The notes under the pieces: generated by a model
What the model saw: only the letters and a program-made list of their open reading frames with translations
Told to the model about the DNA's origin: nothing
The model's database searches: none
Position numbers and translations under genes: made by a program
Assembly: GCA_027485165.1 (NCBI GenBank)
Contig: JAIXRN010000075.1
Coordinates: 124,001-188,000 of the forward strand
Direction of reading: 5' to 3'
DNA length: 64,000 nucleotides
Source of the DNA: Rubrivivax sp.
Lineage (GTDB): Bacteria; Pseudomonadota; Gammaproteobacteria; Burkholderiales; Burkholderiaceae_C
Shown: positions 20,286 to 26,112 of the stretch, one piece after another
How positions within the stretch are numbered: the stretch's first letter is position 1
How the letters are laid out: the number at the start of each line of letters is the position of its first letter

Positions 20286-20870
20286 GTGCAGCCACCCGAA
20301 GAAGCCGACGACGCGGAGTTGCTGGCGGCCTGCCGCGCCGGCCGGCAGGATGCCTGGTCGGCCCTGGTCAGGCGATACCAGCGCCTGGTCTACACCGTGC
20401 CGCGCCGCGCCGGGCTGCCCGAAGCGGCCGCTGCGGACGTCTTCCAGACCACTTTCGAGCGGCTGCTGCAACACCTGCACCGGATCGAAGACGCCGCCCG
20501 CGTGCGGGCCTGGCTGGTCACAACAGCGCGGCGCGAGACCTTGCGCTGGCTGGAACTGGCGGGCCGCACGGTACCGGGCGACGAGCCCACAGCCGACGGC
20601 GGGCCGTCGCTTCTGGATGCCATGGCTGACCCGGCGCCGCAGCCCGACGCGCTGCTGTCGGGGCTGCAGCAACATGAGCAATTGCGTCGCGCGGTGGACC
20701 AGCTGGACCCGCGGGCGCGTCAGTTCGTCGAGTTCGTGTTCCTGCAGGACGAGCCGCCGTCCTATGCCGAAATCGCCGCGCATCTGGGCATCGCTGAAGG
20801 CAGCATCGGCCCGACGCGCGCACGCGTGCTGGCCAAGCTGCGGGCGCTGCTCGAGAAACAGGGGGGCTAG
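20286..20870 (+). CDS. ECF-like sigma-70 family RNA polymerase sigma factor
   Basis: The 194-residue product starts at GTG 20286 (VQPPEEADDAELLAACRAGR), with GGGAA just upstream. It has region 2 (ALVRRYQRLVYTVPRRAG, then DVFQTTFERLLQHL and RVRAWLVTTARRETLRW) and region 4 (SYAEIAAHLGIAEGSIGPTR). These are the two domains of ECF sigma factors. No anti-sigma factor with a zinc-binding motif is next door. The following genes encode an Ig-like regulatory protein, a CHAT protease and a subtilase, so it probably drives that block. Longer in-frame readings run through the end of the preceding gene and are rejected. Confidence 0.9.
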   Translation: MQPPEEADDAELLAACRAGRQDAWSALVRRYQRLVYTVPRRAGLPEAAAADVFQTTFERLLQHLHRIEDAARVRAWLVTTARRETLRWLELAGRTVPGDEPTADGGPSLLDAMADPAPQPDALLSGLQQHEQLRRAVDQLDPRARQFVEFVFLQDEPPSYAEIAAHLGIAEGSIGPTRARVLAKLRALLEKQGG

Positions 20871-20997
20871 GCACCATGGACTGCTGCACCATGGCGTCAA
20901 ACGGGATGTATCAGAACGTTCACACGCTGCTCTGTGAGGCCAAGACGCCCCTGACTTGCGGCTTCCCGCCGTTGCCACACCCTTTTCCGTTCACGCC

Positions 20998-21552
20998 ATG
21001 AAGTCTGCCCAGCCCGACCCCGAAGACGAGTCCTTGGCGCAGGCCCTTTGCGCCAGCCGCGTGTTGGTCGATGCGCCTGAGGCGCTGATCCAGCGCGCCG
21101 TGCAACTTTTCGACCCTGCGCGGCGCATGGCTGTGGCAGACGTACCGGCCCCGGCGCGGCTGCCACGTCTGCTGGCGGCGCTGAAGTTCGACAGCGCAGG
21201 GGCTTCGCCGCTGGCTTACGGCCGGCGTTCAGGCCCGCAGCCGGGCAGCGGGGAAGTGCGCCAGTTGTTGTACGCGCTGGAAGACTGCGACATCGACCTG
21301 CGCGTCGCGCCGGCCGATGGCGGCCTGTTCAGCCTGAGCGGGCAACTACTGGGGCCCGTGGCCACGGGCGTGGTGTCGATCCAGCCTGAAGGGGCGGGTA
21401 CCGCCGCCAGCCGTGCCGCGCTCAACGAATGGGGTGAATTCCGCCTGCCGCCCCTGCCGGCTGGCGCCTGGCGCGTTTGCCTGGAGCTGCCAGACCGCGT
21501 GATCGAGCTGCCGCCGCTGCGCGTGATCGACGACGGGCCAGCCCTGGTGTGA
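20998..21552 (+). CDS. Carboxypeptidase-regulatory-like (Ig-fold) protein linked to the CHAT gene
   Basis: The 184-residue product has a helical, acidic N-terminal half with VPAPARLPRLLAALKFDSAG. Its C-terminal half resembles a carboxypeptidase regulatory/Ig-like beta-sandwich (FSLSGQLLGP, then EFRLPPLPAGAWRVCLELPD). No signal peptide is present. Its stop overlaps the GTG of the CHAT gene (GTGA), so the two proteins are made in a coupled way and probably work together. It may take the anti-sigma or adaptor place between sigma factor and protease; that is inference. Confidence 0.7.
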   Translation: MKSAQPDPEDESLAQALCASRVLVDAPEALIQRAVQLFDPARRMAVADVPAPARLPRLLAALKFDSAGASPLAYGRRSGPQPGSGEVRQLLYALEDCDIDLRVAPADGGLFSLSGQLLGPVATGVVSIQPEGAGTAASRAALNEWGEFRLPPLPAGAWRVCLELPDRVIELPPLRVIDDGPALV

Positions 21553-24464
21553 CAGCGCCCGGCGTCCACGGCGGGCCCGTACCAGCGACCGCTGCTCCTG
21601 CCGCCGCCGCTGCGGCTGCGGCCAGCGATGCTGCCTGCCTGGCACAGGCCCAGGCTCTGAAGGATGCCGGCTATGAAGCCCTCTACCGCGAGCCCGCCCA
21701 GGTGCAGGCCGCGCTGGCGCAGATGCAGGCCCTGCAGCTGGCCTGCCAGGATGCCGACGCCGGTGCGCAGATCAACGCCCTGGCAGCCTGGCTGGCAGGC
21801 GCAGACGCTGCCTTGCGCGGCCGCTCTGCCGAGGCGGTGGCAACGCTGGACGCGGCGTACACCGGCCTGCGTGCGGCCGGACGTCTGCGCGATGCAGCCG
21901 CCAGCCAGGTGCCCAAGCTCATCGCGCTGGCCATGCTGGGGCAAGGCGACGCCGCGCTGGCCTGCGGCGAGCGCACGCGCCAGGAACTGCTGGCCGCAGG
22001 CGACGAAGCTGCTGCGGGCCGCGTGGAAATCAACCTGGGCTCGATGCTGCTGCGGCAACACCGCTACGCGCAAGCGGCCAGCCGCTACCGCAGCGCCACG
22101 GCGCGGCTGGCCCGCCTGGGCGACCGCCGCCATTCGGTGATGGCCGATATCGGTCTGGCCACGGCCCTGGGCTGGACCAGCGACGACGCCGAAGCCGCGC
22201 GCATCTTCGAACGGGCTGCAGCCCGCGTGCGCGCCCACGGCCTGGACGACCTGCAGCCCGTCATCGACAACAGCCGCGGCCAGCTGGCACTGCGCCAGGG
22301 CCGGCATGCCGCGGCGCTGCGCTGGCTGGAAGCCGCACTGCGCATCTGCGAAGCGCGGGGTGTGCCGCAGCCCCTGGCCGAAGCGCGGCGCGACCTGGCC
22401 GATGCCTATCTGGCGCTGAACCTGCTGCCTGAAGCGCTGGCCTTGTACGAACAAGCCATCGCCGCCAGCCAGCAGGCGCAGGCCCCCACGGAACAGGCCT
22501 GGGCGACGATGCAGCGCGGCCGCGCCCGCGCCGGCCTGGGGGCGGCCACCACCGCAGCGCAAGACCTGGCCGCGGCGCGCGCGATGTTCGACAGCTTGGG
22601 CCACGCCGTGGGCGCGGCACGGGCTGCCAGCCACGCTGCCGCGCTGGCTTTGCGCCAGCAGCAATGGGCGCAGGCGCTGGCACTGGCCGAGCCCGCGGCG
22701 GCGGGCCTGCGCGCGGCCGGCGTGCATGGCTGGGCGGCCGAAGCGGCCTTGACGGCCGTGCGTGCGCGGCGCGGGCTGGGCCAGTATGCGCAGGCACAGG
22801 CCCTGGCCGAGCGCACCAGCGCCCAGGCCCAGGCCGCGGGCTGGGACGAGACCGCCAGCGCCTGCCTGGCCGAACAGGGCCTGCTGGCCTGGGCCTGCGG
22901 CGACGAGGACCGCGCCCGCGTCTGGCTGGAGCAGGCCGTCACTGCCATCGAAAGCCGCCGCGCCGAGCTGCCGGCCGACGAGTTCCGCAGCGCCTATGCC
23001 GGCGAAAGGCGTGAAGTCTTCGACGCGCTGCTGGCCCTGGCCTTGGCCGCGCCGGCCGACCCCGCAGCAACCGGCCGCGTGCTGGAAGCCAGCGAACGCG
23101 GGCGTGCACCGGCGCTGCGCCTGGCTGCCGGGCGTGGCGAAACCGCCACCGCCGCCGGCACCGTGGCACGGCGGCAACTGGAATGGACGCGCAGCGCCTG
23201 GCAGCGTGCGCTGGCGCTGGGCGCGCAGGCCCAGGCGGTCGAACTGGGCGAGCGCTGCCGCCACCTGGAAGCCGAGCTGCTGGAGCGGCGGCGCCGCGCC
23301 CGCGCCGCGCAAGACCAGCCGGCCAGCCCGCCCGTGGTGACGACGGCCCCGCGGCTGGCCTTTTCCAGCGCCGCGCTGCAATCAGCGCTGCGGGCCGACC
23401 AGGCCCTGGTGTCCTACGCCTGGTCGGCCGGCCAGCTGGTGGCGGTGGTGGCCACGCGGCAGCGTCTGCAGCGCTTCGACCTGCACACGGCGGACCTGGC
23501 CACCTGTGCCCAGCAGCTGCGCTTCCAGATCGACACGCTGCGTTTTGGCGCCTTGGCCGGCGCGCGCCATGCCGACCAGTTGCAGGCGCGCACGCAGGCG
23601 CGGCTGGCGCTGCTGTACCGCCAGCTGTGGGCGCCACTGGCCCGCGCGGTGGGCGACGCGGCCGAGGTGATCGTCGTGCCCAGTGGCCTGCTGCACGCCC
23701 TGCCCTTCGCCGCCTTCTGCGACAGCGGGCTGGCAGACGGCAGCCTGGCCGATGCCGCAGCCGGCCGCACGTCGCCCGGCCGCAGTGCCGCCGCCAGCGC
23801 CTTGCTGGACCGCCATGCCCTGCTGCTGAGCCCCAGCGCGGCGCTGTGGCTGCAACAGCGGGAAAGCGCGCCGCCCCTGCCGCGCCGCCTGCTGGCCCTG
23901 GGCGCGGCCGGGCCCGGCCTGCCGCATGTGCAGGCCGAGCTGGCCGCAGTCGCCGGGGCCTTCGAAGAACCGCAGCTGCTGCAGGGGCCGGCTGCCACCC
24001 GCCAGGCGCTGGCGCAGGCGCTGGCGCCACGGGCTGGCCTGGCCCAGGATCGGCCCGACGTGCTGCACCTGGCCTGCCACGGCCAATTCCGGGCCGACAG
24101 CCCCCTGTTCTCGGCCCTGGCACTGGCCGACGGGCCGCTGGCGCTGCACGACATCCAGAGCCTGCCGGCCCCGCGGGCGGCGGTCGTACTGTCGGCTTGC
24201 GAAACGGCGCAAAGCCACGTCGCCCCGGGTGACGAGATGCTGGGGCTGGCGCGCGGCTTTCTGCTGGCCGGAGCGCCGCGCGTGCTGGCCACGCTGTGGG
24301 CGGTGGAAGATGCCGCCACCGCGCGCCTGATGGCGGGCTTCTACCGCGCCTGGCGGACTGGCGCGCAGCCGGCACAAGCGCTGCGCCAGGCCCAGCTGGC
24401 GCTGAGGGCCGAGCAGCCGCACCCCTACTACTGGGCGCCCACGGTGCTGTACGGCGTGAACTGA
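21549..24464 (+). CDS. TPR-CHAT caspase-like cysteine protease
   Basis: The 971-residue product begins at GTG 21549, overlapping the previous stop. After an Ala-rich leader, residues about 30-510 are helical TPR-like repeats (for example AASRYRSATARLARLGD and ALRWLEAALRICEARG). A C-terminal CHAT domain spans about 610-970. The caspase-type dyad is intact: His844 in LHLACHGQF and Cys884 in VVLSACETAQ, followed by GLARGFLLAGAPRVLATLW and YYWAPTVLYG, typical for CHAT. CHAT proteases sense a partner through their repeats and cut a target. A subtilase gene follows after 130 nt. No CRISPR elements are near, so this is not a type III-E system. Confidence 0.92.
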   Translation: MTAPGVHGGPVPATAAPAAAAAAAASDAACLAQAQALKDAGYEALYREPAQVQAALAQMQALQLACQDADAGAQINALAAWLAGADAALRGRSAEAVATLDAAYTGLRAAGRLRDAAASQVPKLIALAMLGQGDAALACGERTRQELLAAGDEAAAGRVEINLGSMLLRQHRYAQAASRYRSATARLARLGDRRHSVMADIGLATALGWTSDDAEAARIFERAAARVRAHGLDDLQPVIDNSRGQLALRQGRHAAALRWLEAALRICEARGVPQPLAEARRDLADAYLALNLLPEALALYEQAIAASQQAQAPTEQAWATMQRGRARAGLGAATTAAQDLAAARAMFDSLGHAVGAARAASHAAALALRQQQWAQALALAEPAAAGLRAAGVHGWAAEAALTAVRARRGLGQYAQAQALAERTSAQAQAAGWDETASACLAEQGLLAWACGDEDRARVWLEQAVTAIESRRAELPADEFRSAYAGERREVFDALLALALAAPADPAATGRVLEASERGRAPALRLAAGRGETATAAGTVARRQLEWTRSAWQRALALGAQAQAVELGERCRHLEAELLERRRRARAAQDQPASPPVVTTAPRLAFSSAALQSALRADQALVSYAWSAGQLVAVVATRQRLQRFDLHTADLATCAQQLRFQIDTLRFGALAGARHADQLQARTQARLALLYRQLWAPLARAVGDAAEVIVVPSGLLHALPFAAFCDSGLADGSLADAAAGRTSPGRSAAASALLDRHALLLSPSAALWLQQRESAPPLPRRLLALGAAGPGLPHVQAELAAVAGAFEEPQLLQGPAATRQALAQALAPRAGLAQDRPDVLHLACHGQFRADSPLFSALALADGPLALHDIQSLPAPRAAVVLSACETAQSHVAPGDEMLGLARGFLLAGAPRVLATLWAVEDAATARLMAGFYRAWRTGAQPAQALRQAQLALRAEQPHPYYWAPTVLYGVN

Positions 24465-24594
24465 TCACGCGCTGGCGGTCAGCCCACCACCGGGGCACCC
24501 CCTGTGTGGGCGGCGCACGGTGCATTGGCCGCCGTTTCGTGTATCAAGGCGGCCCTTGCCCGTTCTGTGCCGGATTTGCAACCGGAAGCCGCCC

Positions 24595-26112
24595 ATGCCC
24601 CTGCACCACGTTTCATCTCTGATTCGTCCTCCTGTTCCCAGCCGCGCCGGCACGGCAAACCTGTCGGGCGCAGGGCTGCAGGCGCCTGCGCTGCAGCGGC
24701 CGCTGCGCCTGTCCGCCATCTTCGCGGCCGCCTGCCTGTGCGTGGCCTGCGGGGGTGGCGGGGGCGCGGGTCCAGGTGGCGACGCCAGCAGCACCCCGCT
24801 GGCAGCTTCCACCAGCGGTGGCGAAGGCAGCACGGCCGGCCGCCTGGCCGGGCCGGCGGTGGCGATCTCGGCCGGCGACGAGTTCGTCGTCATGCTCAAC
24901 CCGGGTGCGGACATGGCGCCCGTGGCCGCCACGCGCGGCGGGCAAGTGCTGGACCGCTTCGGCAACCGGCCCATCTGGCGCCTGAGCGTGCCGGCCGGCG
25001 CCACGCTGGCCGGCACGCTGGCAGCCTGGCAAGCCGACCCGCGCGTGCGCTTTGCCGAAGCCCTGCCCGAAGGTGGCCTGCCCGTGGCACGCGACCTGGT
25101 CGTCTGGGCGGTGGACCTGGTGGTCTGGGCCGTCGGCCTGGGTGAGGCGCAGGCCGCCGCGCAGTGGGCGCCGCAAGCCCTGGCCTTGCTGCCGGCGCAG
25201 GCGCTGTCGCGCGGCGATGGCGTGCGCGTGGCCGTGTTCGACACCGGCATCGAGCTCAACCACCCACTGATCGCCCCGCGCCTGGCGCGCACGCCGGCTG
25301 GCCGGCTGGTGGGCATCGACCTGGTCGATGGCGACGACGACCCCAGCGAAACCGCCCAGAGCGGCGACCGCGGCTATGGCCACGGCACGCACGTGGCCGG
25401 CATCGTGGCGCAGGCTGCGCCGGGGGCGCAGATCATGCCGGTGCGCGTGCTGGACCGCAGCGGCCGCGGCAATGGCTGGGTGCTGGCCGAGGCGCTGATG
25501 TGGGCCCTGGACCCGGATGGCAACCCCGCCACCGCCGACGGCGCGAGGGTGCTGAACTTCAGCCTGTCCACCCCGCAGCCCACGCGGCTGCTGCGCGCGG
25601 CCATCGCCCTGGCCAGCTGCGATGACGATGACGACGACAACGGCGACGTCGACCTCGGCGCCCCCGGCTTCGAGGCCGACAAGGCACGCTGCGACGCCAA
25701 CGGCGGCGCCGTCGTGCTGGCGGCTGCGGGCAACGATGGCACCACCACGCCCCAGTACCCGGCTGCCGAGGAAGCCGAGGGCAAGCTGGCCGTCACGGCC
25801 GTCGGCGTCGACGGCCGCCTGCCCGCATTCGCCAGCCGCGGCCCCTGGGTGGGCCTGGCGGCGCCAGGCGACCGCATCGTCAGCGCCTGGCCGGGTGGCC
25901 GCTACGGCACCGTCAGCGGCACATCGATGGCCACGCCCTGGGCGGCAGGTATCGCCGCGCTGGTGATCAACCGCAACCCGGACTGGAAGCCGGTGGACGT
26001 CACCAAGCGCTTGGCCGAACGCAGCCTGCCCGTGTGCGGCCAGACCGAACTGCGGCGCCTGCATGCGCACGGCGCGGTGGCCGACTTCGTGCCTGAGGGC
26101 AACGGCTGCTGA
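24595..26112 (+). CDS. S8 subtilisin-like serine peptidase, probable lipoprotein
   Basis: The 505-residue product has a long N-region (about 38 residues), a hydrophobic stretch and a lipobox-like CVACGGGG at Cys52, so export and lipidation are likely. A propeptide-like region (about 90-190) carries a tandem duplication of DLVVWAV. The peptidase domain has Asp216 (VFDTGIELNHP), His263 (GHGTHVAG) and Ser444 (GTSMATPWAAG), a complete triad. A highly acidic loop (CDDDDDDNGDVD) resembles a calcium-binding insert and is flanked by Cys residues. It is the last gene after the sigma factor, Ig-like and CHAT genes. Confidence 0.92.
   Translation: MPLHHVSSLIRPPVPSRAGTANLSGAGLQAPALQRPLRLSAIFAAACLCVACGGGGGAGPGGDASSTPLAASTSGGEGSTAGRLAGPAVAISAGDEFVVMLNPGADMAPVAATRGGQVLDRFGNRPIWRLSVPAGATLAGTLAAWQADPRVRFAEALPEGGLPVARDLVVWAVDLVVWAVGLGEAQAAAQWAPQALALLPAQALSRGDGVRVAVFDTGIELNHPLIAPRLARTPAGRLVGIDLVDGDDDPSETAQSGDRGYGHGTHVAGIVAQAAPGAQIMPVRVLDRSGRGNGWVLAEALMWALDPDGNPATADGARVLNFSLSTPQPTRLLRAAIALASCDDDDDDNGDVDLGAPGFEADKARCDANGGAVVLAAAGNDGTTTPQYPAAEEAEGKLAVTAVGVDGRLPAFASRGPWVGLAAPGDRIVSAWPGGRYGTVSGTSMATPWAAGIAALVINRNPDWKPVDVTKRLAERSLPVCGQTELRRLHAHGAVADFVPEGNGC

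Follow-up and report, generated by a model that had tools for sequence, protein, structure and literature searches.

A sigma factor, putative anti-sigma factor, TPR-CHAT protease and subtilase encoded as one block in Rubrivivax, and its possible role as a CRISPR-free sigma switch

We have analysed a 64,000-nucleotide stretch of Rubrivivax sp. DNA (assembly GCA_027485165.1, contig JAIXRN010000075.1, positions 124,001 to 188,000; hereafter the window), in which four consecutive genes encode an extracytoplasmic function (ECF) sigma factor (SIG), a small protein (ADA), a TPR-CHAT protease (CHAT) and an S8 subtilase (SUB). These genes form one conserved unit in the genus, and homologues of ADA carry an anti-sigma domain. 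In our estimation the chances are about even that the block is a cytosolic sigma switch working without CRISPR, in which CHAT would cut ADA and thereby free SIG.

In the proposed switch, ADA, with its anti-sigma-derived N-terminal helices, a flexible linker containing an invariant Arg and a transthyretin-like C-terminal domain, would bind SIG in the host and keep it inactive. The TPR solenoid of the CHAT protein may sense a signal, upon which the CHAT cysteine protease would be activated and would cleave ADA in the linker, and SIG, once set free, would have its regulon transcribed. SUB, which appears to be exported and is usually co-inherited with the other genes, would most likely be the output of the switch, or would produce its signal outside the cell. 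The features concerned are as follows.

20286..20870, + strand: SIG, ECF sigma factor of 194 residues, GTG start, sigma-70 regions 2 and 4 (Pfam, TIGR02937)
20998..21552, + strand: ADA, putative soluble anti-sigma factor of 184 residues (by orthology)
21226..21228, + strand: Arg77 of ADA, invariant across phyla in alignments A1, A3 and A4
21549..24464, + strand: TPR-CHAT protease of 971 residues, GTG start (Pfam CHAT, E 3.3e-58)
24078..24080, + strand: catalytic His844 of CHAT, invariant in the 23 sequences of alignment A5
24198..24200, + strand: catalytic Cys884 of CHAT, invariant in the same 23 sequences of A5
24595..26112, + strand: SUB, S8 subtilase with a signal-like N-terminal segment (Pfam S8, E 6.7e-39)
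25092..25141, + strand: 21-nucleotide tandem repeat in SUB (DLVVWAV twice), before the catalytic domain (TRF score 72)

The four-gene block and its conservation

SIG matches the Pfam families Sigma70_r2 (E 2.9e-11) and Sigma70_r4_2 (E 2.2e-6), both above the curated cut-offs, while the protease matches CHAT (PF12770, 197.9 bits against a cut-off of 24) and TPR_12 (E 5.6e-10), and SUB matches Peptidase_S8 with a complete Asp/His/Ser triad. An original prediction, made earlier from this DNA, had located the four genes correctly, and Pfam agrees with it for the SIG, TPR-CHAT and S8 proteins. Inspection of the CHAT sequence places His844 and Cys884 where it had put them, its Asp216, His263 and Ser444 of SUB are right provided that the gene starts at the ATG at 24595, and the ADA and CHAT genes do share 4 nucleotides as it claimed (GTGA, 21549-21552).

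Sixty-one related genomes were compared, the host's own included, 37 of them from the host's genus and 24 from elsewhere in the order. ADA is present in 15 of the 61, in 19 copies, and all carriers belong to the genus (15/37, against 0/24 for the rest of the order); the 17 regions fetched from the relatives hold the 18 copies beyond that of the window. In iterated profile searches, a SIG homologue is found in 17 of the 18 genus loci (absent from L033), and CHAT stands beside 18 of the 19 ADA copies (the exception is L037). SUB follows 16 of the 18 genus CHAT genes, and the two exceptions, L025 and L028, stop at a contig edge. The four-gene order recurs in most of the 17 fetched loci, and L031 even holds a tandem pair of sets with a single SIG between them. 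Since the flanking genes vary between genomes, the block itself is the unit.

The genus loci, and the 19 Actinomycetota loci described below, were selected via ADA matches, and the presence of ADA in them is not independent evidence. The CHAT-selected sets are a CHAT profile search of the related genomes and a scan of genome contigs with a CHAT alignment. In the former, which scored no more than 14 candidates in each genome, the 18 full-length orthologues all reach at least 1057 bits and the next best match no more than 235 bits, and these 18 are exactly the ADA-linked set. All 18 CHAT orthologues are linked to ADA, and 17 of the 18 loci have SIG; the four genes thus make up a single conserved unit, as had been supposed; CHAT genes without their neighbours, which the original prediction had named as the finding to count against it, are not what the genus orthologues show.

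In the contig scan, 24 of the best 80 loci kept have ADA, and among these 15 have SIG and 18 have SUB. Of the 56 loci without ADA, 3 have SIG and 2 have SUB (L050 and L056, whose contigs begin at or inside the CHAT gene), and a looser search adds weak S8 matches in L068 and L090. According to the record titles, the 24 loci come from Rubrivivax, Acidobacteria including Pyrinomonadaceae, Chloroflexi, Rubrobacter and Patulibacter, Meiothermus, and Planctomycetes. ADA-CHAT pairs are found in at least six phyla and all four genes in at least five, SIG not being detected in the Meiothermus locus (L053). A large number of the named records are metagenome bins, and the phylum given for any one of them may be mistaken; the carriers do include the named strains Rubrobacter taiwanensis and Meiothermus hypogaeus. 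L044, counted among the 24 loci, duplicates the contig of L033; it was kept in A3 to A5 and excluded from the tree and the distance correlation.

In a FastTree phylogeny of 108 CHAT domains, where the CHAT-selected contig loci number 23 with ADA and 54 without, the ADA-linked CHATs, 54 in all, fall within a single clade (support 0.996). The only members of this clade without ADA are L050, L056 and L058, whose contigs begin at or inside the CHAT gene. Three of 111 domains had been dropped for shortness (L102, L123 and L216, the last linked to ADA). Two ADA loci, L210 and L222, have CHATs that fell below the E cut-off, so that, with L216, three ADA-linked CHATs lie outside the tree.

For the 19 ADA-selected loci of Actinomycetota, the phylum of the Rubrobacteraceae genome G464, all 19 have SIG, 17 have CHAT and 16 have SUB, the genes being arranged in several ways. 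That the same partners recur in differing orders argues for a functional linkage. In addition, across 43 loci the four proteins show correlated pairwise distances (r 0.59-0.83, 0/500 permutations), a result that shared descent gives as well. When the host phylum was searched with ADA, 2 of 398 genomes matched (the own genome and one weak partial match), a count that understates the spread because at most eight candidates were scored per genome. In the phylum of G464, 180 of 296 genomes match, most of the listed rows spanning the anti-sigma part only and presumably being other anti-sigma factors; with at most ten candidates scored, ADA is found at E 6.8e-28 or better in 13 of the 296, three of them previously known carriers.

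Some loci depart from the common arrangement. L037 and L217 have SIG-ADA pairs without a CHAT gene in the region read. Two Chloroflexota loci (L118:5590-6354, L071:6662-7438) have before ADA a gene of about 230-270 residues with no Pfam match over the cut-off, and open reading frames (ORFs) resembling it are seen in L068, L090 and L121; this gene may encode a diverged sigma factor that occupies the place of SIG. The Meiothermus locus (L053:3769-11631) has two short genes that resemble ADA but have no helical part, between SUB and a gene of 678 residues that precedes CHAT.

ADA and CHAT as the putative core of the switch

Searched alone, the window ADA has no match in Pfam or NCBIfam (E ≤ 1), in PADLOC (E ≤ 0.01) or in the PDB (E ≤ 1). 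Among its homologues, 7 of 23 carry zf-HC2, an anti-sigma domain, at E ≤ 0.1, the ADA profile matches RsiW and DdvA, and the homologue in L045 has a ChrR-like predicted structure. Because the homologues show this domain and this predicted fold, ADA is probably a soluble anti-sigma factor. Its architecture, by orthology, is a shortened N-terminal helical part, a linker and a transthyretin-like C-terminal domain, and among the 19 ADAs of the genus 7 have a CarboxypepD_reg match (E ≤ 0.1). On the other hand, the H-x3-C-x2-C zinc motif of class I (zinc-associated, ZAS) anti-sigma factors is absent from the window ADA; the motif is found in 6 of the 22 rows of A4.

Arg77 lies in the loop joining the helices to the beta-sandwich, and is invariant in A1 (19 rows), A3 (23 rows) and A4 (22 rows). 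This loop is a candidate for the region that CHAT recognises or cuts. When hydropathy was used to look for a membrane segment of the DdvA kind, the highest 19-residue mean was 1.45 in the window ADA and 1.63 in the window CHAT, where it falls within the CHAT domain itself.

The catalytic His and Cys of CHAT are invariant in 17 genus sequences (A2, with the L028 copy left out) and likewise across phyla, in all 23 sequences of A5. An AlphaFold 2 model of the window CHAT (predicted local distance difference test 85.9) has Csx29 and separase as its top Foldseek matches, and the loop of residues 885-893, directly after Cys884, is of low confidence in it. His844 and Cys884 bear on an alternative in which ADA is the anti-sigma factor and CHAT is a sensor or scaffold, so that the signal-bound TPR-CHAT protein would alter the grip of ADA on SIG without any cut. 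DdvA unites anti-sigma and CHAT parts in a single chain, and the tight pairing of ADA with CHAT requires contact only; but an invariant His844 and Cys884 would be needless for a pure scaffold, and we regard this alternative as unlikely, though serious.

Two other CHAT genes of the host genome, L040 (contig C98) and L041 (contig C24), are open frames of 1943 and 1278 residues, and within 18 kb around them phmmer found no match (E ≤ 1e-4) to the SIG, ADA, CHAT or SUB of the window.

Known systems and competing explanations

It is by analogy with the Csx29/Csx30 and DdvA/DdvS pairs that CHAT would be expected to act on ADA and free SIG. Passages of PMC10028731 describe the Csx29 of Desulfonema ishimotonii as cleaving Csx30, an inhibitor of CASP-sigma. 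This type III-E Craspase shares with the block a TPR-CHAT protease with His and Cys, a cleavable inhibitor (the cleavage of ADA being predicted) and a sigma factor, whereas Csx30 extends to residue 565 and ADA has 184 residues. No CRISPR array was found near the block, only one two-copy 22-nucleotide repeat being present in window positions 8000-38000. In Myxococcus xanthus, according to passages of PMC4374960, the anti-sigma factor DdvA holds DdvS inactive, and the DdvA entry in the PDB is a CHAT-domain protein. Here too an anti-sigma domain and a CHAT-type protein are paired with an ECF sigma factor, although DdvA is one transmembrane chain, whereas the block has two separate proteins plus a subtilase. 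The earlier suggestion that CHAT targets the adaptor or the sigma factor fits the anti-sigma domain of ADA homologues as far as the target is concerned, with the cleavage itself a prediction.

ADA also resembles ChrR-type anti-sigma factors, since in the homologue model N-terminal anti-sigma helices are followed by a beta domain. The C-terminal domain is a cupin in ChrR but transthyretin-like in ADA, and the window ADA is without a zinc motif. In the CalpL/CalpT/CalpS system of type III CRISPR, a soluble protease cuts an anti-sigma-like protein and frees a sigma factor; CalpL is a Lon-SAVED protease, not TPR-CHAT, and its signal is cyclic oligoadenylate.

A special kinship of the block's CHAT to Csx29 was looked for and not seen. 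The window CHAT scores 48.6 bits with the Csx29 profile NF041237, whose cut-off is 300 bits, and the profile matches 23/23 module CHATs (best E 3.8e-22) against 17/23 non-module CHATs (best E 1.5e-21), the latter picked out of the 56 loci that lack ADA. No match above the cut-off was found in 395 genomes from the phylum of G766, with at most two candidates scored in each, or in 3 genomes. Csx30 is absent among the matches listed for the ADA structural model, an absence that excludes nothing.

The gene neighbourhood itself is already known: passages of PMC8999054 give the ECF54 group (Huang 2015; Casas-Pastor 2021) conserved neighbours with carboxypeptidase, subtilase and CHAT domains, and propose proteolytic control without an anti-sigma factor. 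Compared by gene neighbourhood, the block likewise has an ECF sigma factor with CHAT and subtilase neighbours, but its carboxypeptidase-type neighbour is a transthyretin-like domain, joined to an anti-sigma domain in several homologues. If the published view held here, the proteases of the cluster would act on the sigma factor itself. It is stated in that review, but the anti-sigma domain of the ADA homologues speaks against it, and against the description of ECF54 as lacking an anti-sigma factor, and we find it quite unlikely. Our literature search, which was incomplete, found no paper calling the ADA family an anti-sigma factor; as far as it shows, what is added here is the single CHAT clade, the phylum spread and the proposal that the carboxypeptidase-type gene encodes an anti-sigma factor.

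We suggest, tentatively and with more doubt than assurance, that a general CRISPR-free switch of TPR-CHAT protease, anti-sigma factor and ECF sigma factor exists in at least five phyla, with Craspase and DdvA as its specialised versions and ADA as an unrecognised anti-sigma factor. If true, this switch would be a cytosolic counterpart of regulated intramembrane proteolysis, one sigma factor group would gain a plausible brake and trigger, and for the TPR-CHAT proteases of this clade the substrate could be predicted in any genome with the block. The logic of Craspase, a caspase-like protease freeing a sigma factor, would pass from a CRISPR speciality to possibly a general bacterial signalling device. 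The proposed switch can be tested with three purified proteins.

The block has also been suggested to serve defence or regulated death, where freed SIG or cut ADA would kill or protect infected cells. The nearest parallels, Csx29 and DdvS, are indeed both linked to phage defence, DdvS being said in passages of PMC12288465 to control an antiphage CBASS (cyclic oligonucleotide-based antiphage signalling system)/CRISPR island. However, no defence system was recognised among the ten flanking ORFs scanned, which include an ABC transporter, a methyltransferase, a histidine kinase with a LytTR regulator and a sugar dehydrogenase, and on which PADLOC gave only two partial matches (an ABC domain and a methyltransferase domain). 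Moreover, tblastn with the window ADA, which detects close relatives only, found no match in 50,697 phage and 72,556 plasmid records, and within that reach it gives no sign of a mobile block either. A defence role is improbable in our view.

Judged by hydropathy, which is a crude measure, a signal-like hydrophobic N-terminus is present in 33 of 36 SUBs, as against 4 of 23 CHATs and 1 of 23 ADAs, and neither ADA nor CHAT of the window has one; from inspection by eye, SUB is a probable lipoprotein. Since SUBs are mostly signal-like at the N-terminus and ADAs and CHATs rarely so, SUB is an unlikely substrate of CHAT. The two-protease cascade of the original prediction, with CHAT cutting the subtilase propeptide, has to its credit that SUB lies 3' of CHAT in all 16 genus pairs where the contig continues, but given a signal-like N-terminus in SUB and none in the window CHAT, and because S8 subtilases normally self-mature, it is highly improbable.

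Promoter search and further observations

The claim that the block stands under its own sigma factor did not find a counterpart in a sigma-specific promoter. In a search for a bipartite promoter motif, the real maximum was 3 sequences, against 3-4 in ten two-base-block shuffles, and none rose above the shuffles. The sole recurring element is GGCATSAT, which precedes SIG in 6 of 17 loci (L023, L024, L025, L027, L030 and L031), 23-58 bases 5' of the estimated SIG start, and stands before neither ADA nor CHAT nor SUB. Its expectation is 0.009 per upstream region, the motif having been spotted by eye in the same sequences before counting. No -35 partner can be recognised for it, and it may simply belong to an ordinary promoter.

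Short tandem Trp motifs stand just before the catalytic domain of SUB, and their copy number varies between loci: NSWQVG four times in L045, FNSWAGG three times in L053, and [ST]WSIG twice in L046 and L048. In the window SUB, the differences between the two DLVVWAV-encoding copies are confined to third codon positions.

A Thermodesulfovibrionia contig encodes CHAT, DUF4384 and trypsin domains in one protein (L072:3003-6053), which is possibly a two-protease fusion; the same contig also encodes a second TPR-CHAT gene and a sigma factor weakly similar to SIG.
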